Shown piece after piece: positions 5,153 through 21,953 of a DNA stretch of 24,244 nucleotides. The stretch is from a virus. The stretch's first letter is position 1, and every line of letters begins with the position of its first letter. Made by a program: the position numbers and the translations under genes. Location: positions 1 to 24,244 of IMG/VR virus record IMGVR_UViG_3300022752_000385, one strand, 5' to 3'. The notes beneath the pieces were generated by a model. The model did not search any database. It worked only from the letters and a program-made list of their open reading frames with translations, and was not told the DNA's origin.

Positions 5153-5476
5153 TTACATCCCAATTTTTCTTTCAAAATCTCTTAATCTATCTCGATTTTT
5201 ACTATATATTCCAAAACCTTTATCATCATCTTCATGTGCTCCATAACCTCTTTTTAATTTTTTATGAATTGCTTGAGCCAGTTTTTTTGCGTTATCTGAG
5301 TCCATTAAAAAATCTGCAAATTCAACCATTTCATCATTTCCAACTTCAGAAAACTCAAAACTAGAAATTATATCGTCAATAATTTTTCCAATATTTCTTT
5401 TTTCTCTTTCATTTTCTAATATTACTCGTCTAGTTATTCTTGACAAGTCTCTTTCGTTAAATCTTGTTACCCTCAT
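5153..5476 (-). CDS. Putative head-cargo protein, 107 aa
   Basis: Residues 1-22 (MRVTRFNERDLSRITRRVIL, then EN) follow the shared amphipathic pattern and end in I-L-E/N, a fit to the (I/L)-x-E cleavage rule. The rest is helical: KRNIGKIIDDIISSFEFSEV, an acidic middle, and SDNAKKLAQAIHKKLKRGYG, then a basic end (KNRDRLRDFERKIGM). A small, charged, helical product fits an internal head protein. It has a late-type box at 5492-5499 and a terminator at 5101-5130, so it is a single-gene transcript. The family is unknown. Confidence 0.75.
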   Translation of the reverse strand: MRVTRFNERDLSRITRRVILENEREKRNIGKIIDDIISSFEFSEVGNDEMVEFADFLMDSDNAKKLAQAIHKKLKRGYGAHEDDDKGFGIYSKNRDRLRDFERKIGM

Positions 5477-5520: not shown

Positions 5521-6078
5521 TTATGCAAAATTGTTATTTATAGAATTGTTCATAACAAAATCAAAATTTCCACAAGGGAGTCTATTTTGTAGGTTTTCAG
5601 AAAGTTTTTTATTACTTAGAGTAAATTTGAAAAACCCATCAGAAAAGAAAGTTTCATCTCTAAGCCCTTTTGTTTCCAACCTTGTAGAAAATTTTTCTTC
5701 ATCACAAACATAGGTAATCCTTGATAATCCCTGAGACCATTCTAAGGCACCACCTTCTAAATTATTAATTATAATTTCAACACCTATATCACCAGTCAGT
5801 ACTCGAACACTTTTAATTTTACCTCTCAGGTTAAATTCTTCATTATAACTACTCCAAACAATCATGTCATCTTGTGAAAGTGGTTGAAGTTTAAAGGATT
5901 CTTCGGTATATTCGTTATATTCACTATTAACCCATTTTGTTTCTGATGGGATTGTAGTAAATTTTACGGTTTTTCCAATTAAATCATCGAAATTTACATT
6001 TTGTGGATTAGATTCTTTAATAATTCTTTTAACTATATTAGCTAAATCAGATTCTGTAAGTCTTATAATTTTTTTCAT
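5521..6078 (-). CDS. Putative head-cargo protein, 185 aa
   Basis: The start at 6078 (MKKIIRLTESDLANIVKRII, then KES) is chosen over a longer frame that runs into tRNA-Leu. Residues 1-22 are nearly the same as the start of the 83-residue protein at 11250-11501 although the bodies differ, and end in I-K-E/S. The body has a beta-rich central region (IGKTVKFTTIPSETKWVNSE; LRGKIKSVRVLTGDIGVEII) that could be an OB- or SH3-like barrel, and an Asn-rich tail. No enzyme motif is seen. A late-type box lies at 6095-6102. Confidence 0.78.
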   Translation of the reverse strand: MKKIIRLTESDLANIVKRIIKESNPQNVNFDDLIGKTVKFTTIPSETKWVNSEYNEYTEESFKLQPLSQDDMIVWSSYNEEFNLRGKIKSVRVLTGDIGVEIIINNLEGGALEWSQGLSRITYVCDEEKFSTRLETKGLRDETFFSDGFFKFTLSNKKLSENLQNRLPCGNFDFVMNNSINNNFA

Positions 6079-7154: not shown

Positions 7155-7652
7155 TTATTTAATTTCAAAAGCGCATCTCATAATTTTTTTGGTTTTAACC
7201 GCGTCATCGAAATTTCCAATAACAACACCATCTTTAATTGTAAATGCGTGGTGTCTAACTAAAACAAAAAATGTTCCTTTTGGATTTTGTTTAATAAAAG
7301 TTCCAACGGTCATTTGTCTTAATTTGGGTTCTCCTTTGATTGTGACGTTATAAGACAATGAATTAATCAATGTGGAACTTTTTCTAACACCAACAGGATA
7401 AACTTTTTTGTTGTTTACAGTAGTTCTATTGTCAGCCATTCTTACAAGCTTACTTACAGTTCCGTAAGTTCCTTTTTTTGGTTTTCTACCAAATTGTTCT
7501 GCAACATACTTATGTGCGTTGTCATATGGAATGTCAAATGAAGATGCAAATGCTCTAACAACACAATCGGCTTTTTCTGATTTTGCGATTATTGAGTCTG
7601 AATAACCTTGAATTGCTTTTGAAGTAATTTCGTATGGAAGTTTGTTTTTCAT
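7155..7652 (-). CDS. Papain-like fold protein, putative cysteine peptidase
   Basis: The ATG at 7652 (MKNKLPYEITSKAIQGYSDS) is preferred because the TAnnTTTG box overlaps the longer frame. Residues 33-38 (ADCVVRAFA) give a Cys at a helix start. Later, RHHAFTIKDGVVIGNFDD supplies His and Asn/Asp in the order Cys-His-Asn seen in papain-fold enzymes. About 165 residues is right for one such domain. The substrate is unknown, and an inactive or transglutaminase-like member is possible. The short gap to the secreted-protein gene suggests co-transcription. Confidence 0.65.
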   Translation of the reverse strand: MKNKLPYEITSKAIQGYSDSIIAKSEKADCVVRAFASSFDIPYDNAHKYVAEQFGRKPKKGTYGTVSKLVRMADNRTTVNNKKVYPVGVRKSSTLINSLSYNVTIKGEPKLRQMTVGTFIKQNPKGTFFVLVRHHAFTIKDGVVIGNFDDAVKTKKIMRCAFEIK

Positions 7653-8262: not shown

Positions 8263-8886
8263 TTAAAATCCTCTAGCAAGGTCAATAGCAGCTTCACAAG
8301 TAGTATTACCAACCACTAAACCTGCAGTGTCTAAAGGAACTCGCAGAGCTCCTCCGTTATATTCAATGTAAATTATATTATTACCAAATTTTGGTTCTGC
8401 TCTTGCGGCTTCCCATTCTTTTTTTAGAGTTGCTTTGGTTGTAGGGTTTCTTTCTGCTACCCATTTATCATAAGCATATTGTACCGTACTATTCCAAGAT
8501 GTTAAACTGGTTTTCGCTATTACCGTTACAGTGGCCGTTTTCCCTACAGGGACAATCGCTTGTTCCTCACCATTATCATGATTACTGTGTTTTGAAACTC
8601 CACCAATGGAAACTTTATGGTCTGTCAATTGGTCAGTACTTAATCCTTTTCCAAAAACTCCAATTCTAGTTATGTATGCAATTTCTGTTCCGGTATTCTT
8701 AACCGTGCAAGTAACTAAAAATTGGTCCATACCTGTACTACAAACGGTTCTATTAACTGCCGCAGGACCTGTAACAAGTGCTAATGTTGTATTACCTAAA
8801 CCTTCCATCAAATATTGTCTTGATGATGCATTTTGATGCATTTCCAAAATTCTTTGTTTTTCTTGTTCTGAAATTATAAACTTCAT
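8263..8886 (-). CDS. Putative head-cargo protein with RQYLMEG processing site, 207 aa
   Basis: The N-terminus (MKFIISEQEKQRILEMHQNA, then SSRQYLMEG) holds two (I/L)-x-E sites: I-L-E at 13-15 and L-M-E/G at 26-28. The same SRQYLMEG block begins the otherwise different protein at 9480-9983. The body looks like an extracellular-style beta domain: VNRTVCSTGMDQFLVTCTVK, NTGTEIAYITRIGVFGKGLS, then VPVGKTATVTVIAKTSL, which recalls Ig-like or late-embryogenesis-type folds. It has a lone Cys pair (C50, C60). Late-type box at 8921-8928; convergent terminator at its 3' end. Confidence 0.78.
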   Translation of the reverse strand: MKFIISEQEKQRILEMHQNASSRQYLMEGLGNTTLALVTGPAAVNRTVCSTGMDQFLVTCTVKNTGTEIAYITRIGVFGKGLSTDQLTDHKVSIGGVSKHSNHDNGEEQAIVPVGKTATVTVIAKTSLTSWNSTVQYAYDKWVAERNPTTKATLKKEWEAARAEPKFGNNIIYIEYNGGALRVPLDTAGLVVGNTTCEAAIDLARGF

Positions 8887-9479: not shown

Positions 9480-9983
9480 TTATTTTGGATTTTGAGTTGG
9501 TGGTATAATGTTTTTAACAAATTTGACCATACATCTTAATGGTTTTACCCCACCATTAATCGTATTCATACTTATAACGACTCCACTTTCTTCAGATAGG
9601 TTATATTGTTTACCCATATTTCCAATGAAATAGTTTTGTAAATTTTTATCACTAGTTATAAATCGATATTGATTTTTACCAACAGCCGTTCCTGTTGATA
9701 TTTGAGTTCCACCAAATTTTATACCCGCAATACTTTTAAATTCATCTAAATTCAAAACTATATTTGACATAAAATCTTCTATTTTAACTTTAACAAAAGA
9801 ACTACTATCAAAATATTCTTTATTGTTTGTATCCATTTTGATAGGAACGTTTACTATTATTGGTAATTGTCCATTTTCACTACCTTCCATTAAATATTGT
9901 CTTGATTTTTCTTGTAATCTTCTAATTTCTAACATCAAGTTTGATTGTTGGATGTGTCTAATTTTGCTATAACTTCTATTCAT
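9480..9983 (-). CDS. Putative head-cargo protein, 167 aa
   Basis: The N-terminal 33 residues (MNRSYSKIRHIQQSNLMLEI, RRLQEKSRQYLME) are basic and helical and end in L-M-E/G, matching the processing block of the 207-residue protein. An earlier L-Q-E is at 23-25. The rest is beta-rich with few charges (LPIIVNVPIKMDTNNKEYFD; LDEFKSIAGIKFGGTQISTG) and a final KPLRCMVKFVKNI. The family is unknown. A late-type box lies at 10001-10008. Confidence 0.75.
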   Translation of the reverse strand: MNRSYSKIRHIQQSNLMLEIRRLQEKSRQYLMEGSENGQLPIIVNVPIKMDTNNKEYFDSSSFVKVKIEDFMSNIVLNLDEFKSIAGIKFGGTQISTGTAVGKNQYRFITSDKNLQNYFIGNMGKQYNLSEESGVVISMNTINGGVKPLRCMVKFVKNIIPPTQNPK

Positions 9984-10460: not shown

Positions 10461-10760
10461 TTACATTCCAATAATCAAATCATCAGGATTAAATCCTTTT
10501 GAACCTTTGATTTTATCTTCAACTTCATCGTACATAAATGTTTTAACTACCGCCAAAATTGATTGTTCTGATTGAGCAATTTTTGTTTCCATCCAATCTT
10601 CAAGTTGTTCACCTTCTTCCATCATTTCCCACATTTTATGTGCCAATGTTGCAATTGTAAAAAGTTGTTGTTTTGCCATGTAAGAACCTCTTTCTTCAGA
10701 TTCATGTAAAGAGTCTTTTATTTGTCTAAGTTGTTCTTCTGTTATAATGATTCTTCCCAT
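10461..10760 (-). CDS. Putative head-cargo protein, helical, 99 aa
   Basis: Residues 1-20 (MGRIIITEEQLRQIKDSLHE) are followed by S, giving an L-H-E/S site. The body (SYMAKQQLFTIATLAHKMWE, MMEEGEQLEDWMETKIAQSE) resembles a helical domain I recall from T4-like phages of aquatic bacteria, with the pattern of KxQL, then a W-x-x-x-KI helix and a final AVVKTFMYDE helix. Function there is unknown. It follows the 157-residue gene with one base between, so it is part of a cargo operon ended by the terminator at 10411-10439. Confidence 0.78.
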   Translation of the reverse strand: MGRIIITEEQLRQIKDSLHESEERGSYMAKQQLFTIATLAHKMWEMMEEGEQLEDWMETKIAQSEQSILAVVKTFMYDEVEDKIKGSKGFNPDDLIIGM

Positions 10761-10761
10761 T

Positions 10762-11235
10762 CTAAGCTCGTTTTACAGTTTTTATAAAACCTTCATTTAT
10801 TCCTTTTAATTGTGCAATTGCATCATAATAATTAGTTAATGCTTCCTCTAATTTATCATATCTTAATTCCAAATCTTCTCCTCTTGATGTTTTTTCTAAT
10901 TTTTTAATTCTATTTTCTATTTTGGTTTTTGTTGCTTGTTCATACAATTTATCTAAATCTACTTCTATTTCTTCTAATTCCTTTTGTAAATTTTTTGCTC
11001 TGTTTCTAACTCTTGCATAAGCAGCTTCCATATTTGAATTCAATAAACTTCCACCAGTAAAAAAAATGCCAATATTTTCTCCAAACGTAACAAATCTATT
11101 AAAAAGACCAACAGTATTTGCTTTTAATCTATCCCCCAAACCTTCATTTATCATAATTTTTTGTGAGCGTTCTATTATGTATCTTTTTTCTACTTGCTCA
11201 TTTAACTCTTTTATTTTTTTAATTTTTGTATTCAT
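10762..11235 (-). CDS. Putative head-cargo coiled-coil protein, 157 aa
   Basis: The N-terminus (MNTKIKKIKELNEQVEKRYI, IERSQKIMINEG) has three candidate sites: L-N-E (11-13), I-I-E (20-22) and I-N-E/G (29-31). Residues 33-70 include a hydrophobic FGENIGIFFTGGSLLNS stretch, and residues 70-150 form a long charged coiled coil (ARVRNRAKNLQKELEEIEVD; TKIENRIKKLEKTSR). A Lys/Glu-rich coiled coil would suit a scaffold-associated or internal head protein. It is the middle gene of a three-gene operon. Confidence 0.75.
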   Translation of the reverse strand: MNTKIKKIKELNEQVEKRYIIERSQKIMINEGLGDRLKANTVGLFNRFVTFGENIGIFFTGGSLLNSNMEAAYARVRNRAKNLQKELEEIEVDLDKLYEQATKTKIENRIKKLEKTSRGEDLELRYDKLEEALTNYYDAIAQLKGINEGFIKTVKRA

Positions 11236-11249
11236 ATCTAAATTTATTT

Positions 11250-11501
11250 CTATCTTAATTTTCTTTTTAATTCTTCGATGATGTTTTCTAACATTCTAAC
11301 TTGATGTTTGACCAAATCTTTGGCTTCCTCAATTTTTCTTCCATCTCCTTTTTTTGTTGCAGAATCTAAATCTTCTAAAGAATAAGATACTCTTTTACAT
11401 GTACCTCTGAAATCTTCAGCAACTTGATTTATGCTTTCATTAATTGTTCTTTTAACAATTTTATTTAAATCAAATTCAGTCAGTCTAACTATTTTTTTCA
11501 T
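11250..11501 (-). CDS. Putative head-cargo protein, 83 aa
   Basis: The first 23 residues (MKKIVRLTEFDLNKIVKRTI, NES) are nearly the same as those of the protein at 5521-6078, ending I-N-E/S. The remaining 60 residues are unrelated to that protein: VSYSLEDLDSATKKGDGRKI and ISKDLVKHQVRMLENII-like helices with a basic end (EELKRKLR). After cleavage only a small basic helical peptide would remain, similar in style to T4 internal proteins. It is the first gene of the operon, with no clear late box upstream. Confidence 0.75.
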   Translation of the reverse strand: MKKIVRLTEFDLNKIVKRTINESINQVAEDFRGTCKRVSYSLEDLDSATKKGDGRKIEEAKDLVKHQVRMLENIIEELKRKLR

Positions 11502-11523: not shown

Positions 11524-11892
11524 TTACCATGTTCTACAAGCCCAATATCTTGGTTTCCATCTTGGGCCAGGATTATCGCAATTGTGTCTTGCTCTAAATG
11601 AACGTCTCCTTTCAGGATTGTTCTTTTTAATTACCATTCTTTTTCCGTGTGCCGATTTTCCACCAAACCCAAAGTTCACTTTAACAACCTTACCTTTGTC
11701 GTTTTTAACGTATACCTTGAACTTTTTGATGTCTCCTTGCATAATCTTACCAAGTTGAACTTTTCTACCTTGATATTCAGCTTCTTGTAATAAGTTTATT
11801 TCTTCAACATTACCATAAATGTCTTCATAAATAAAATCCTGATGGAATGATTCTTCAATTAAAATCTTTCGTATGGTTGATAAAATATTCAT
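11524..11892 (-). CDS. Basic phage protein with RHNCDNPGP and RYWACRTW motifs
   Basis: The ATG at 11892 (MNILSTIRKILIEESFHQDF) gives 122 residues; a longer frame crosses a terminator. The start ends in L-I-E/E, a cargo-type site. The second half is very basic and highly patterned: KKFKVYVKNDKGKVVKVNFG, then NPERRRSFRARHNCDNPGPR and a RYWACRTW end. I recall this C-terminal module as widespread in uncultured large phages, with unknown role; two Cys and one His could bind zinc. A late-type box lies at 11897-11904, only 4 bases before the ATG. Confidence 0.82.
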   Translation of the reverse strand: MNILSTIRKILIEESFHQDFIYEDIYGNVEEINLLQEAEYQGRKVQLGKIMQGDIKKFKVYVKNDKGKVVKVNFGFGGKSAHGKRMVIKKNNPERRRSFRARHNCDNPGPRWKPRYWACRTW

Positions 11893-14213: not shown

Positions 14214-14711
14214 TTACAGTTCAAGAAAATAAAAATCTTTTAAATTATCTGAATAGTGTAAATCGTATCCTAAATTTTTGTATAAGTTTTGTGCGACATC
14301 GTTTTCTCGATGAGTAATTAATGTACAATACTTAAATCCTTCTTGTTTAGAAACATCGTGAGCCAAATTCATAATTTGTTTTCCAAAACCATTTCCTCTA
14401 AAATTTTCATTTACATACACATCGTAAATGTATGTGGCGTTGTCGCTATTAAAAAAATTTTCATCACAATTTTTTCTACACCAACTTTTATCTTCATATA
14501 ATCTAGGTATGTCATAATCTAATGCCCACCCATTATCAAAAGATACTATATTCGCATAACCAATTAAATTTTCATCTAAACTCATAATTTTGATTTTTTT
14601 TCCAAAAGTATTTTTAGTTTCACCTTCAAATAAAATGTTAGTTGAAATATGATTACTTTCAAAAATATTCATCATAGATTTTATCCGAAATAATTGTTCG
14701 TGTAATTTCAT
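14214..14711 (-). CDS. GNAT acetyltransferase with head-targeting-like N-terminus
   Basis: Residues 1-29 (MKLHEQLFRIKSMMNIFESN, HISTNILFE) hold sites I-F-E/S (16-18) and L-F-E/G (27-29). After them comes a GNAT fold: IMSLDENLIGYANIVSFDNG, then motif A VNENFRGNGFGKQIMNLAHD (R-x-x-G-x-G, acetyl-CoA pyrophosphate binding), then YCTLITHRENDVAQNLYKNL with GYDL, the usual motif B region. The acceptor substrate is unknown. It lies 6 bases after the DHH gene. If packaged, it could modify host proteins or small molecules at injection, as T4 Alt does by ADP-ribosylation. Confidence 0.85.
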   Translation of the reverse strand: MKLHEQLFRIKSMMNIFESNHISTNILFEGETKNTFGKKIKIMSLDENLIGYANIVSFDNGWALDYDIPRLYEDKSWCRKNCDENFFNSDNATYIYDVYVNENFRGNGFGKQIMNLAHDVSKQEGFKYCTLITHRENDVAQNLYKNLGYDLHYSDNLKDFYFLEL

Positions 14712-14717
14712 TTTTAA

Positions 14718-16217
14718 TTAACTATTTTCAATTTTTTTATTTAGAATATCCACAAAGGTATTTTTCATATCTTTTACTAAATCCGAATAAGTTCTTTTTG
14801 GTATATCTTCAGTTTCATATTCAAAGTTTATACCTTCCCTTCTTATCTGATTAAGAGCCGCTTCAATTTGTTTTTCTGATAACTTTCTAAATCTTAAAAG
14901 TTTTTGTTTGATGTCTTTGACAAAATTATTATCTCCTTCGTAATTTGCAATTGGTAATGTTTCTTCAGGTAAATCTTTTGTGTATGGTTTATCATATCCG
15001 CTATATAAAAAGTTTATACCTGATATGTTTGTAATACATTTATGTCCTCCTGAATTTGCCTGTAAAAAGTCATAACCGTTAATTGTTTGTTTTTCAGAAT
15101 CAAATGAAGGCATTTTACCATATAACGCCATCATATCTTTTGATGTAAAACCAACTGACTCAGGTGTTGCCTCTCTTTCTGCAATTCTTTTAATAACTCT
15201 AAAACTTAAAATTTCTTTTTTTAATTCAGATTTAAACTTATTTAATACTTCGTCTTTAATTTCACCTAAGTTTATACCTTTAAGTGCTCTTTCTTCTTTA
15301 AATGGATTACAAGATGCTTGAACCATCCCAACTTGTCCACCAAGACCAGTCACTAAAAAGTCTGCATCAGGGTGTAATCTAAATGGAACGTATCTATCGT
15401 AAGAACCTTTTTTCATGCTACCTAACCCATATTGTGATATAACATTTCCTGTTTTTTCAATTACACCTTCTTTTTGTCTTGCTTGTAAAAACTTTTCTTG
15501 ATTTTGTGTCATGGTTTCAATAGACGCATAGTCTTGGTCTTTTGCCATTTTTTTAATGTTAGTAAGAATACTAATTAATGATGGTTTTGAGTTCATCACT
15601 AAACTTTCCATAAAATTATCATTATTTTTATAAGCTAAAAGTAGCTTATTAACCACCAATCCCATTAACATTTTATTTTGTTTTAGTGAACTATCTTTAT
15701 CAAATTTATATAAAAAGTTCATTACCATTTCTGGCGTTATTTTATTGACAGCAAAATTTGCAGAATCAACAGTTGATATTAACATTATATCATCTGATGG
15801 AAATATTTCTTTAGGGGATATTACTTGTGATATTGTTTCAACATTAGACCTCGCGTGTCTGAAACTTGTTGCGGTGTCGTCTTCAACACCAGCCTGACTA
15901 TCGTGATGGTCTGTATGAATAACAAACATTGGTTTACCGTGTGCAAAATCTACAAGTACTGGCATCACATCACCCTCACCTTCAGGTTTTTTAATTGCAA
16001 ATTCTTTTGTTCCGTATTGAATAACTTCACAATCAACCACAGTAATACCATTTTGCTCCAAATAGTTTTTCATGGCAATTGCTGTTGTGACGCCATCCAA
16101 GTCTTGGTGAAAGTAAATTTTAGCTTTTTTATATCTTTTAGCAATATTTTTAATATCTCTAATTCCTGATTCTTTAATCAACATTTTAAATTGACTTTCA
16201 GTTATAATAATTTTCAT
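14718..16217 (-). CDS. DHH-family phosphoesterase with head-targeting-like N-terminus
   Basis: Residues 1-16 (MKIIITESQFKMLIKE) followed by S give an I-K-E/S site. Residues 34-40 carry HQDLDGVTTAIA (motif I of the DHH superfamily: H-x-D-x-D-G), then VLVDFAHG, and the signature IHTDHHDSQ at about 117-125, with a later LISTVDSANFAV acidic motif. This order is that of RecJ/NrnA/c-di-AMP phosphodiesterase enzymes, which use two metal ions to cut phosphodiester bonds. A C-terminal ANSGGHKCITNISGINFLY recalls the DHHA1 GGGH-like element. Substrate could be DNA, short RNA or cyclic dinucleotide. ATGA overlap with the upstream gene. Confidence 0.88.
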   Translation of the reverse strand: MKIIITESQFKMLIKESGIRDIKNIAKRYKKAKIYFHQDLDGVTTAIAMKNYLEQNGITVVDCEVIQYGTKEFAIKKPEGEGDVMPVLVDFAHGKPMFVIHTDHHDSQAGVEDDTATSFRHARSNVETISQVISPKEIFPSDDIMLISTVDSANFAVNKITPEMVMNFLYKFDKDSSLKQNKMLMGLVVNKLLLAYKNNDNFMESLVMNSKPSLISILTNIKKMAKDQDYASIETMTQNQEKFLQARQKEGVIEKTGNVISQYGLGSMKKGSYDRYVPFRLHPDADFLVTGLGGQVGMVQASCNPFKEERALKGINLGEIKDEVLNKFKSELKKEILSFRVIKRIAEREATPESVGFTSKDMMALYGKMPSFDSEKQTINGYDFLQANSGGHKCITNISGINFLYSGYDKPYTKDLPEETLPIANYEGDNNFVKDIKQKLLRFRKLSEKQIEAALNQIRREGINFEYETEDIPKRTYSDLVKDMKNTFVDILNKKIENS

Positions 16218-17212
16218 AAATAAGTTTCTCCAATATTTGTTAATTCTTCAGAAGAATATTTATCTCCATTTTGTTTTTTCCCTCCATTTGTAACTTCCCA
16301 ACCAATCATTCTGTTAATAATACTTTGTTGTATCCATTTGTCAGTTAGAGGATTTCCAAGTCTGTAATTACTTTCTTCAGGATTATTATAAAAATAAAGT
16401 TGTTTACCAATATCCCAGTATGCCCAACTTTTACTCATACCGGCAGCACTTATTTCTTTATTTACTTTGGTTGTCATCAAATTTTTGAACCTGTCAACTA
16501 AATTATTTACCAACGATTCAATTTCTTTTGGGTTTTCTTTTGATAATGCTTCGGCGTATTTTTTCATACTTTCACTGGGTTCTGCAGTATTAAATCCAAC
16601 ATCACTGTAGTTTAATTTTGATATGTATTGGTCAGGACCGCTCGTTGGTTCGTTTTTTTTGACGTTTGGTTGATTAGTTTTAAAATTTGAGGTTATTTTA
16701 TTCGCACTAGCTATTCTTTTTAATCTATAAACCCTTTCTTTTAGTCCTGGTATTTGGTCAACAATTTTATTTACTTCGTCCCAATTTATTGAAAAACGGG
16801 TTGATAAACCAGAAACCCCAAAAGTATCACCACATTGATTGTTATCCCCCAAATTAAGAAGACATAACGCTTTGCACATTACCAAGTACCAGTCATTTCC
16901 AGTTAAAAAAAAATGTTTTTCTACATAACCTCGAAACTTCCAGTCTTTTATAAATAAATTTATTAATTCATCAATGGACTTGGCTTCTTCTATTTTTTCA
17001 TAAACAAAAATTCTTTCCCCAGCATCAATAGATTCTTGTCTTAATTCTAAATATTTTCCCCCATTATTCAATTGATTTACTGCATCCTCATGTGATGTAT
17101 TTTTAACATATTCAAACCAATCATCTATAATTTTTTTATCCTCTTCTTTAGTTTCACAAATTCCCATGATTTGTTTGATTCTTAAAATTTGTTCGTTGAG
17201 TATTGTATTCAT
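16214..17212 (-). CDS. Putative head-cargo protein, 332 aa, unknown body
   Basis: Start at 17212 (MNTILNEQILRIKQIMGICE, T) gives an I-C-E/T site; a longer frame crosses the terminator at 17241-17259. Residues 25-160 are mostly helical (DWFEYVKNTSHEDAVNQLNN; GNDWYLVMCKALCLLNLGDN), a linker follows (KTNQPNVKKNEPTSGPDQYI), and a C-terminal helical domain (SKENPKEIESLVNNLVDRFK; SWAYWDIGKQLYFYNNPEES) ends the protein. No known fold recognised. It is the first gene of a three-gene operon with DHH and GNAT, led by a late-type box at 17217-17224. Confidence 0.78.
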   Translation of the reverse strand: MNTILNEQILRIKQIMGICETKEEDKKIIDDWFEYVKNTSHEDAVNQLNNGGKYLELRQESIDAGERIFVYEKIEEAKSIDELINLFIKDWKFRGYVEKHFFLTGNDWYLVMCKALCLLNLGDNNQCGDTFGVSGLSTRFSINWDEVNKIVDQIPGLKERVYRLKRIASANKITSNFKTNQPNVKKNEPTSGPDQYISKLNYSDVGFNTAEPSESMKKYAEALSKENPKEIESLVNNLVDRFKNLMTTKVNKEISAAGMSKSWAYWDIGKQLYFYNNPEESNYRLGNPLTDKWIQQSIINRMIGWEVTNGGKKQNGDKYSSEELTNIGETYL

Positions 17213-18497: not shown

Positions 18498-18633
18498 GTG
18501 ATATATATTTTATTGTATTTCCTAAACTAAATCCCAAATCCCAAGCATCAATAACTTTGATTGCTTCATATTCATTATTTTTACCAAATTGATAATGGTC
18601 AGGGTGATTTACTTGTTCTTTATTGTTTTCCAT
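18391..18633 (-). CDS. DUF3310 domain protein, 80 aa
   Basis: MENNKEQVNHPDHYQFGKNN is the typical DUF3310 opening (VNHPxHY), followed by YEAIKVIDAWDLGFSLGNTI, then KYISRAGKKRKDKELEDLRK and ALWYLQHHIKTIEE, all matching family order. In T7 the related gp1.7 is a nucleotide kinase; most DUF3310 proteins are uncharacterised but recur in phage nucleotide metabolism loci. It overlaps the GS stop by 14 bases and the next gene by 107 bases, so translation is coupled. Confidence 0.92.
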   Translation of the reverse strand: MENNKEQVNHPDHYQFGKNNEYEAIKVIDAWDLGFSLGNTIKYISRAGKKRKDKELEDLRKALWYLQHHIKTIEEKNRNS

Positions 18634-19819
18634 TTATATTAAATTTAATTTCCTCTGGTTCAACGTTAGACCCTTTCATGGTTTCTGAATCTACCAAATA
18701 ATCTTCATCATTTTGATATTCATTTAATAGTTCATTATTATCAATTGTTCCGTATTTACCAATAATCTTGTCTACATTTATTTTGGTATTCATTTTCATT
18801 TTAATTTCCATTAATGTTTCTGCACTTTCAAGTGATTTTATAACTTCAATCAAAACTTTATATGGGTCTGCATTTGATGCCGGTCTTCTGTCTTCTAAAT
18901 AACCTTTCCAACTTTTGGCAGTTTGTTTTGGGATTCTTATTGACGCCCCTCTATCTCCAATTCCATAACTATATTTTTCAATTGATTGTGTTTCGTGTTT
19001 TCCTGTAAGTCTCAAATTGTTTTCAAAACCATAATTTTTGATATGTTCATGATGTCTTGAGCCAAATGTATTTAAAATCGCTTGAAAATATTCGTATCCA
19101 CCCAATGTTCTCATTCTATCATTTGAAAAGTTGGTGTGCATACCTGAACCATTCCAATCACCTTTGAGTGGTTTTGGATGTAAAATTATTTCATAATTGT
19201 ACTTCTCTGAAAGTCTATGTAAAAAATATCTTGTCATCAATAAATCATCAGCGGCTTTTAAACTTCCTTTAGAAAAAACTTGATATTCCCATTGTCCTAA
19301 AGCAACTTCGGCGTTGATGCCAGTAATTTCCATACCATATAATAAACATAACCCCATATGCTCTTCTGCAAATCCTCTTCCAACAACATTTCCTCCGACA
19401 CCACAATAATATTTTCCTTGAGGTTCTACATGTGGAATTTCATGACCTAAAATAATATTATTTTTTAAATTTTTAATAAAATATTCTTGTTCAAAACCAA
19501 CCCATAAATCTTCTTGATTTTTAACTTTTGACCTAAGATTTGTTTTGTCGGGTGTGCCGTCTGAATTTAATACTTCACATAAAACATATACCCGGTTATT
19601 TTCTAATGGAAAAGTTTTTTGAGTATAATATCTAACTGGTTTTAATATTTTATCTGAGTTTTTTGTGTTAGCTTGTTTTGTCGATGAACCATCAAAGCTC
19701 CATTCCGGAAATTTGAATTCATTTACATTTGTATTTATTTCTTCAACTTTTACTTTGCTTCTAAGGTTTGGTTCTGACTCATATCCGTCTAACCACACAT
19801 ATTCTAAAGTTATTTTCAT
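18620..19819 (-). CDS. Type II glutamine synthetase
   Basis: The 399-residue protein shows the GSII (eukaryote-type) signature series: KFPEWSFDGSSTKQA (about 37-51), WVGFEQEYFI with the metal Glu pair, YYCGVGGNVVGR, ITGINAEVALGQWEYQV, GDWNGSGMHTNFS, RLTGKHET, YGIGDRGASIRIP and EDRRPASNADPY. These residues bind metals, glutamate and ATP, so the enzyme should make glutamine from glutamate and ammonia. The C-terminus has about 50 extra acidic residues beyond the usual end. ATGA overlap with the 43-residue gene and a 14-base overlap with DUF3310 place it in a late-type operon as a metabolic gene carried by the phage. Confidence 0.95.
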   Translation of the reverse strand: MKITLEYVWLDGYESEPNLRSKVKVEEINTNVNEFKFPEWSFDGSSTKQANTKNSDKILKPVRYYTQKTFPLENNRVYVLCEVLNSDGTPDKTNLRSKVKNQEDLWVGFEQEYFIKNLKNNIILGHEIPHVEPQGKYYCGVGGNVVGRGFAEEHMGLCLLYGMEITGINAEVALGQWEYQVFSKGSLKAADDLLMTRYFLHRLSEKYNYEIILHPKPLKGDWNGSGMHTNFSNDRMRTLGGYEYFQAILNTFGSRHHEHIKNYGFENNLRLTGKHETQSIEKYSYGIGDRGASIRIPKQTAKSWKGYLEDRRPASNADPYKVLIEVIKSLESAETLMEIKMKMNTKINVDKIIGKYGTIDNNELLNEYQNDEDYLVDSETMKGSNVEPEEIKFNINGKQ

Positions 19820-20753: not shown

Positions 20754-21953
20754 TTAATTATATCTCATAATAATATATGTCTCCCCATTTACATTAATTT
20801 CATCGTGGTCTCCGTCATAACTGCCTAAAATATCCCCCCAACTATCACTATTAATTACATAATCTATTACAGCCTCCGTATCAACATGATACAAAATTTC
20901 ATTCTTATCAAATCCTTGGTCAGATAAAAATGAAACAAAGTCATCTTCATTATCGTCAACATAAGATTCAATTGCCGATTCTATTTCGTCTTGGTTGTAT
21001 TCACCCTCTGGATTTTCTTCAACGTCTTCAATGAGTTGTGTTATATCATCAATTTCGTCTTGGATGCTATTTTCGGTTTCTTCATCCAAATCTTCATTAT
21101 TTATTCTTTGTTCTAATTTTTCAATTTTTTGTTTGTATATATTTACAATTTTTTCTTGTTGTTGTGTCAAATCTTTTTTAATTCCCCAATTTTCAGGGTC
21201 ATCATAAATTGATTCTGATATATAATCACTTAAAAAACCTCTAACCGAATCACTATCCAAATGGTCTTCCCAAACCCAAGAAGAAAATGCTTCATATCCA
21301 AGTTCATCTATTCTTGCCTCAATTGAACGTCTAGCTGCACTTTCTATTTCATCTTCACTATATACCATCCATTCTGTGTCTCTATCATCCTCACCTAACC
21401 AAGTAAAAAAACCACCACCATAATGTGTGTAATTTTCAGGATAAATAAAATATTTGTCCTCAAGAACTTCTTCCTCACTAAAACCATCATCATAATAAGA
21501 CAATTTACCTTTATTTTTTAACTCTTCGTATAATGCTTCTGTTTGGTAGGATATTTTTTTTCCATTTTCAATATTCCAAGCGTCTTCTTTTCTAAGTTTA
21601 TCTAAATAATTGAGTTTTTCTTGAAGTATTTCTTGTTGTCTTATAGTATGTCTTTTACTATACCAATCTCTAACGTTTTTAGCTTTATTTTCATCAAAAA
21701 CATCAACGTTACTATAACTAATATCTAAATTGCCTTCAATTTTAGAAAGTGAATCAAGATTTTTAATTTCTTTGTCCCATTGTAAATCTAAATCACCGGT
21801 GATTATAATATCTTTATTTTTATAATATTTTTTTAGTAATGCAACATCACTATTGAAATATTTCAAATTTTCTTTGAAGTCTTCAGGTGAAATTTTTACA
21901 ACGTTTTCAATTTCTTCACAAATAACCTTTCTTATTAACTTTTTTAATGACAT
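20754..21953 (-). CDS. Large acidic putative head-cargo protein, 399 aa
   Basis: The N-terminus MSLKKLIRKVICE, followed by E, gives an I-C-E/E site after a very basic helix. Residues 45-90 show leucine-rich spacing (IITGDLDLQWDKEIKNLDSL; KIEGNLDISYSN), and the rest is strongly acidic: long Asp/Glu helices (YSEDEIESAARRSIEARIDE; DLDEETENSIQDEIDDITQL). Such a polyacidic protein could mimic DNA or pack against basic proteins. A late-type box lies at 21959-21966. Family unknown. Confidence 0.78.
   Translation of the reverse strand: MSLKKLIRKVICEEIENVVKISPEDFKENLKYFNSDVALLKKYYKNKDIIITGDLDLQWDKEIKNLDSLSKIEGNLDISYSNVDVFDENKAKNVRDWYSKRHTIRQQEILQEKLNYLDKLRKEDAWNIENGKKISYQTEALYEELKNKGKLSYYDDGFSEEEVLEDKYFIYPENYTHYGGGFFTWLGEDDRDTEWMVYSEDEIESAARRSIEARIDELGYEAFSSWVWEDHLDSDSVRGFLSDYISESIYDDPENWGIKKDLTQQQEKIVNIYKQKIEKLEQRINNEDLDEETENSIQDEIDDITQLIEDVEENPEGEYNQDEIESAIESYVDDNEDDFVSFLSDQGFDKNEILYHVDTEAVIDYVINSDSWGDILGSYDGDHDEINVNGETYIIMRYN

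Follow-up and report, generated by a model that had tools for sequence, protein, structure and literature searches.

The three-gene operon at positions 14,214–17,212 of a 24,244-bp viral contig (IMG/VR record IMGVR_UViG_3300022752_000385; this whole contig is the window referred to below) encodes a 332-residue helical protein, a DHH/DHHA1 phosphoesterase and a GNAT acetyltransferase, and sequence comparison leads us to suggest that these proteins are probably packaged in the phage head, processed by a gp21-type protease and injected into the host. All three open with a leader of 16–20 residues that ends in [LI]xE (that is, leucine or isoleucine, any residue and glutamate). We envision that these short N-terminal leaders would load the proteins into the prohead core, that a phage gp21-type (S77) prohead protease would trim them after [LI]xE (E16, E18 and E20), and that the trimmed proteins would be injected together with the DNA, the operon presumably being expressed late. 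An earlier reading made from the letters alone (the sequence-only reading) had claimed here an operon whose DHH and GNAT enzymes share a 'cargo-type start' with the first gene; the three open reading frames (ORFs) are indeed intact on the minus strand at this place, both enzyme classes hold (DHH by fold and invariant motifs, GNAT by PF00583), and the start is real, each protein carrying a leader that ends in [LI]xE. The order is 332-aa gene, DHH gene, GNAT gene, the first two overlapping by 4 nt and the third starting 6 nt after the second. Genes and leaders are as follows (a slash marks a predicted cut, here and throughout):

16214..17212, minus strand: 332-aa helical protein, first operon gene; an in-frame TTG start would lengthen the ORF to 17236
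17153..17212, minus strand: leader of the 332-aa protein, residues 1–20, MNTILNEQILRIKQIMGICE/T, predicted cut ICE20/T
14718..16217, minus strand: DHH/DHHA1 phosphoesterase, 499 aa; PF01368 match below cut-off, fold and invariant motifs
16170..16217, minus strand: leader of DHH, residues 1–16, MKIIITESQFKMLIKE/S, predicted cut IKE16/S
14214..14711, minus strand: GNAT acetyltransferase, 165 aa; PF00583 over cut-off
14658..14711, minus strand: leader of GNAT, residues 1–18, MKLHEQLFRIKSMMNIFE/S, predicted cut IFE18/S

The leader is best followed on the DHH protein, for which one scan returned at least 599 related loci. The best 80 of these were kept for comparison, and the leader count took 79 of 81 loci, leaving out the window itself (L001) and L035, in which an in-frame stop (near 7332–7421) lies inside DHH motif I and may be a sequencing error or a real disruption. 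In all 79 readable homologues the conserved core G[IL]R[DN]I is immediately preceded by [LIV]xE and then S or G. Leaders have been exchanged among DHH orthologues with the end motif held constant: 35 distinct sequences occur, with main lengths of 7, 16 and 19 residues, and in each of them E at 0 follows L or I at −2 and a hydrophobic residue at −3. Relatives of the 332-aa protein behave similarly, with differing leaders and a retained site (MGIFE/S, MGLLE/N and MGIIE/S); the GNAT leader is kept in close orthologues, and this protein has a second site of the [LI]xE type (LFE) at residue 29. Given that matches of the DHH model to solved structures in the PDB mostly begin at model residues 14–31 (among the matches listed) and that an archaeal RecJ profile match starts at residue 21, the DHH leader is an add-on outside the enzyme fold. 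The case that the sequence-only reading had named as fatal to it, a replicative enzyme needing an intact N-terminus, was not seen, as structure and profile matches begin after the leader.

Leaders of this kind extend well beyond the operon. In a related contig of 291,867 bp (G001), about 59 proteins carry them over unrelated bodies; these were hand-picked from clusters, leaving out signal-peptide-like sequences, other small clusters and members judged leaderless. When the N-terminal 28-mers of ORFs in G001 (n = 249) were compared, 158 pairs scored at least 40, versus 11, 8 and 5 in three internal windows, and 197 of 204 N-terminally similar pairs (319 ORFs) lacked similarity in their bodies. 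As this excess of similar N-termini stands beside a site kept by all 79 DHH homologues that could be read, we regard the cargo-type start as beyond chance. In Flavobacterium phage immuto, which is in culture, the excess is weaker (18 pairs scoring at least 40 versus 2 and 1; n = 167), and similar leaders are borne by genes lying between tail and terminase. Single cases in a Pfam census of the 59 G001 proteins include pterin-4a-carbinolamine dehydratase (PF01329, 5.5e-24), GNAT, PAP2, lysozyme, LysM and peptidoglycan-binding domains, among others.

The head machinery that such leaders would call for is found in the relatives. G001 and a second contig of 140,128 bp (G002), 2 of 11 related contigs, carry both an S77 protease gene (Peptidase_S77, 5.5e-26 and 8.2e-24, respectively) and a gp23 capsid gene (Gp23, 3.6e-64 and 1.5e-64); in G001 the two genes belong to a head module resembling that of T4 and flank an acidic gene that was assigned by eye as gp22-like. 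By gp23, the nearest annotated relatives, at about 40%, are a Microcystis phage and a Flavobacterium phage. The G001 gp23 has HLINE/AAS at residue 60, near the T4 gp23 cut site, which we take to be FLTE/A at residue 65. T4 gp21, the prohead protease, is described in PMC9026906 as cleaving behind L/I-X-E, and the leaders that take T4 internal proteins into the head as being 10–19 residues long, a range against which the predicted window leaders measure 16, 18 and 20; in the internal protein IPIII, targeting depends on residues 4 and 7 (aromatic) and processing on residues 8 and 10 (section 2.6 of the same source).

Megaphage orthologues of the DHH protein bring the two systems closer. Those of two phages of 635 and 642 kb start MISKYNQFINE/E and MLRKYGQFINE/E, and T4 IPIII, whose capsid-targeting sequence is proven, starts MKTYQEFIAE/A, with Y, F, I and E spaced as in both megaphage leaders (their Y5 and F8); in the window DHH leader, F10 and L13 stand at the IPIII aromatic spacing before I14-x-E16. 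The start codon of a third, distant megaphage homologue is TTG, and its leader reads LIKEFHNFALNE/E. S77 is matched weakly, below cut-off, in all three of these megaphages. By sequence, then, DHH has a leader of T4 type in one lineage and different leaders in others, and the end of the leader does not change. Many other short IPIII-like starts occur in the 635-kb phage (L130, LR745206.1 85000–134999), among them MIKKYLDFIKE/S, MKKFTEYIKE/S and MRHLKRFNE/S. One megaphage DHH (L125:1971-3962) contains an insert of winged-helix-like type (PF14947, 3.2e-5, narrowly under the cut-off).

The same motif reappears where DHH is joined to a second domain. DHH is C-terminally fused to GNAT in L044 and L074, the fused GNATs sharing 43–45% identity with the separate window GNAT, and to SET domains in L017:7815-9980 (PF00856, 5.5e-13), L025:3662-5605 (4.4e-11), L036:9992-12205 (1.1e-7) and others recognized by alignment; it is possible that the DHH–SET fusion is a packaged phage protein methyltransferase. 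The L070 protein is extended by a part with a peptidoglycan-binding domain, and other relatives by unknown domains. Among homologues of at least 540 aa, which yielded 27 distinct segments (related sequences, not independent ones), [LI]xE lies just after the last DHH helix in 20 of 27 junctions and [LIVMA]xE in 25 of 27; the site occurs in 4.0% (484/12,227) of 8-residue windows of the core and in 10.0% (426/4,252) of those in the fused parts. The exceptions are L045 and L048, with no site at this point, L070, with ANE, and L043, L049, L051 and L052, with V or M for L/I. The middle letter of the site varies (T, N, R, Q, K or D) and its flanks are constant, as expected of a cleavage site. These sequences suggest cargo polyproteins that would be cut apart inside the head by the head protease. 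We lean, by a modest measure, towards a broader proposal in which large phages pack cargo polyproteins consisting of an exchangeable leader, DHH and a second enzyme (GNAT, SET or unknown) to be separated at a second [LI]xE; the dozens of other leader-bearing proteins would turn the head into an all-purpose means of delivery, and the DHH–GNAT pair of the window would be the unfused form. Open-licence articles in PMC, among the matches listed, described neither leaders of this kind in huge phages or in Bacteroidota nor a cargo polyprotein cut by a prohead protease.

A different account would give the shared N-terminus another task, in translation start or regulation, in anchoring to a membrane or assembly site or as the signal of another phage protease, and would make the enzymes ordinary intracellular ones (for example, a RecJ-like replication or repair nuclease). 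It draws on RecJ models being the best family-level sequence match of the DHH protein (TIGR00644, E 0.0022; RecJ-like matches run from residue 19–21), on an untagged DNA methyltransferase gene that lies near the operon in the window and directly adjoins DHH in G001, and on the GNAT relatives that have no leader. However, what is conserved is the amino-acid sequence, with [LI]xE at its centre, the motif recurs at the internal junctions between DHH and its added domains, and the megaphage orthologues match the T4 IPIII leader; we consider this account quite improbable.

Several observations nonetheless weigh against packaging, processing and injection as proposed here. Neither S77 nor gp23 was seen in the 24-kb window, a fragment, and no match to either was found in 9 of the 11 related contigs, all fragments. 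MAFFT places the T4 and G001 gp23 sites in different columns. Depletion of [LI]xE, considered as support for promiscuous cleavage in cargo bodies, was set aside, there being no overall depletion: the bodies of the 59 G001 proteins hold 170 sites versus 158.6 expected, and the DHH core is mildly depleted (62 versus 83.8 expected, z −2.5). The leader-bearing lysozyme, LysM and peptidoglycan-binding proteins could be tail or lysis proteins. GNATs adjoining DHH in L026, L027, L029, L030, L034 and L035, which are more distant, have no leader, so that packaging is less secure for GNAT; in all of these except L035, the leader-bearing DHH beside the leaderless GNAT is C-terminally extended. Nor does sequence fix the substrate of the DHH enzyme. 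The literature, in which proteomics of immuto was sought by name and topic, gave no virion proteomics or cleavage data for the window phage or a relative. Delivery in the virion, as claimed by the sequence-only reading, is a prediction strongly supported by comparison (the leaders, S77 and gp23 in relatives and the IPIII match).

The DHH protein belongs weakly to its family by sequence and clearly by its modelled fold and invariant motifs. Its PF01368 match has an E value of 0.0011 and 19.7 bits against a gathering score of 28.1 (homologues reach up to 25.1 bits), it falls short of the curated NCBIfam recJ cut-offs (TIGR00644, 16.3 bits versus 396.9; NF053576, 13.4 versus 360), and a sequence search of solved structures gave nothing relevant. 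The fold was compared through an AlphaFold2 model (pLDDT 76.4), for which only the listed structure matches were read and unlisted ones were not taken as absent. Among these, PggH (Z 15.2) and pAp phosphatase (Z 14.2) are followed by the RecJ family at Z 12–13 (RecJ structures align over 253–311 residues at Z 10–13) and by NrN entries at Z 10.4–10.7. The metal-site residues H37, D39, D41, D90, D103, H104, H105 and D151 do not vary among 30 homologues. The motifs are assigned as follows, D151 being taken as the fourth metal-site aspartate, and SGGHK-ITNIS stands in place of the usual DHHA1 signature:

16092..16109, minus strand: DHH motif I, H37-Q-D39-L-D41-G42; H37, D39, L40, D41 and G42 unchanged across 30 homologues, Q38 kept by at least 90% of them
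15903..15911, minus strand: DHH motif D103-H104-H105; invariant in 30 homologues
15765..15767, minus strand: D151, taken as the fourth metal-site aspartate; invariant in 30 homologues
15042..15050, minus strand: DHHA1 GGH motif, G390-G391-H392; S389–K393 and TNI (396–398) invariant in 30 homologues

A cellular origin of the DHH gene was also considered and not retained: two exact peptide patterns run against 84,980 species genomes gave 13 matches, 0 of them confirmed, a search that distant cellular relatives could escape.

Structure prediction, which the sequence-only reading had proposed among its checks, upheld the DHH fold and left the substrate unfixed, the fold favouring PggH and pAp phosphatase and the sequence RecJ; the model would place the enzyme between the two. 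Our first choice, held with about evenly divided confidence, is hydrolysis of short oligonucleotides or of signals of the dinucleotide type, and not of DNA; a small substrate is favoured on the ground that enzyme and genome would be packed into one head. Action of the packaged enzyme on host DNA or RNA ends (as by RecJ or a nanoRNase), for nucleotide scavenging or attack on the host chromosome, is a fair way short of an even prospect: the RecJ-like sequence matches and the long RecJ structural alignments speak for it, whereas PggH (a pGpG phosphodiesterase) and pAp phosphatase score higher and a DNA exonuclease packed beside the genome would be risky. More doubtful is a pre-loaded counter-defence in which the enzyme destroys a host immune nucleotide (that is, SAM-AMP, cyclic oligoadenylate or a cyclic di- or trinucleotide of cyclic-oligonucleotide-based anti-phage signalling systems, CBASS). 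NrN, which matches the DHH model, is a SAM-AMP-degrading DHH enzyme with PggH, the top DHH match, among its predicted nearest folds (PMC10600005, in part), and PMC3012670 describes T4 internal proteins as a diverse defence set against host attack enzymes. Against this, no PADLOC family was matched by any of the three operon proteins at E of 1 or below, a shared fold shows no substrate, and NrN ranks below RecJ. A specific anti-CBASS role is one open option, and nothing found ties the genes to CBASS.

The GNAT assignment is secure by sequence (PF00583, 3.8e-14, 53.4 bits against a cut-off of 20.7), and the ORF contains what we take to be the acetyl-CoA loop motif of the family (R-x-x-G-x-G):

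14382..14399, minus strand: GNAT acetyl-CoA loop, R105-G-N-G-F-G110; read from the ORF

Across the 79 DHH loci, GNAT lies downstream in 14, is fused in 2 and is not found within 1.5 kb in 47, the contig ending early in the other 16. Its most likely role would be to acetylate a host protein. The 332-aa protein has 6 aligned members (43–89% identity to the window protein) and an all-helical AlphaFold2 model (pLDDT 74.1, pTM 0.48), with no family over cut-off, no fold match in the PDB at E of 0.001 or below and no match in the phages collection. This protein gives some substance to the view that the leader is a tag for binding and cleavage in the prohead core, the tagged proteins serving head assembly or genome condensation and being degraded or lost before ejection: a helical protein without a fold match would suit such a part, and the T4 core proteins gp22 and gp67 are fragmented by gp21 (PMC9026906, in part). 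Yet invariant DHH catalytic residues and a GNAT that keeps its acetyl-CoA loop would be odd for scaffolds, and we hold this view to be unlikely.

Elsewhere in the window, ten further minus-strand ORFs have leader-like starts with [LIVM]xE within 36 residues (1029-1664, 5153-5476, 5521-6078, 8263-8886, 9480-9983, 10461-10760, 10762-11235, 11250-11501, 11524-11892 and 20754-21953), for example MKKIIRLTESDLANIVKRIIKE/S and MSLKKLIRKVICE/E; a Pfam scan of 8 of them (20754-21953 included) gave none over cut-off. A glutamine synthetase-like gene (18620-19819, minus strand; PF00120, 3.5e-16), without leader, lies near a DUF3310 gene and the DNA methyltransferase gene, and G001 holds genes with N-termini like this group in the same order. 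The window phage has 7 tRNA genes.

If injection of the three proteins is correct, the set of enzymes that large uncultivated phages send in along with their DNA would be far larger than the handful known from T4, and the leader would provide a sequence rule by which the delivered arsenal can be listed from genomes alone. DHH would then be a widespread delivered enzyme (found at the many loci counted above), active before any phage gene is read, and the junction sites would make the head-maturation protease a polyprotein processor as well.

The closest known systems include the T4 internal proteins IPI–III and Alt: like the window proteins, these unrelated proteins carry a short N-terminal leader ending in [LI]xE, an S77 protease and a gp23 capsid protein are also present in the relatives of the window, and Y-x-x-F-I-x-E, the pattern of IPIII, is seen in the megaphage orthologues of DHH. 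The window leaders differ in belonging to other sequence classes. The cargo predicted here, known from genes alone, includes DHH, GNAT and, by fusion, SET, with some polyproteins holding an internal [LI]xE, and four internal cargo proteins are named for T4 (PMC9026906, in the portions drawn on) against the roughly 59 leader-bearing proteins of G001. In SPN3US and phiKZ, cleavage likewise follows the E of a short motif and packaged proteins have N-terminal propeptides, serine being favoured at P1' in SPN3US, as S follows some cut sites here; however, 8 SPN3US substrates have N-terminal propeptides, most of them of 111–254 residues, in place of dozens of short leaders (PMC10052503, in part). Protease lineage and motif also differ between those phages and the gp21-type system proposed here. 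PggH, pAp phosphatase, RecJ and NrN have their fold and catalytic motifs in common with the window DHH, which differs from them by the added leader. Polyvalent proteins, in which several enzyme domains, GNAT included, lie in one polypeptide predicted to be injected, recall the DHH–GNAT and DHH–SET fusions (PMC5512222, in part); the terms 'DHH' and 'SET domain' have 0 occurrences in that text, passages of which suggest release by a built-in metallopeptidase domain, whereas the junctions described here carry the head-protease motif [LI]xE. The window enzymes also differ from polyvalent proteins in being separate genes with separate leaders, multidomain forms being confined to L044, L074 and the SET fusions. 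Set beside these systems, what is new is the likely cargo polyproteins; otherwise the proposed system is T4 internal-protein delivery in an enlarged, modular form.

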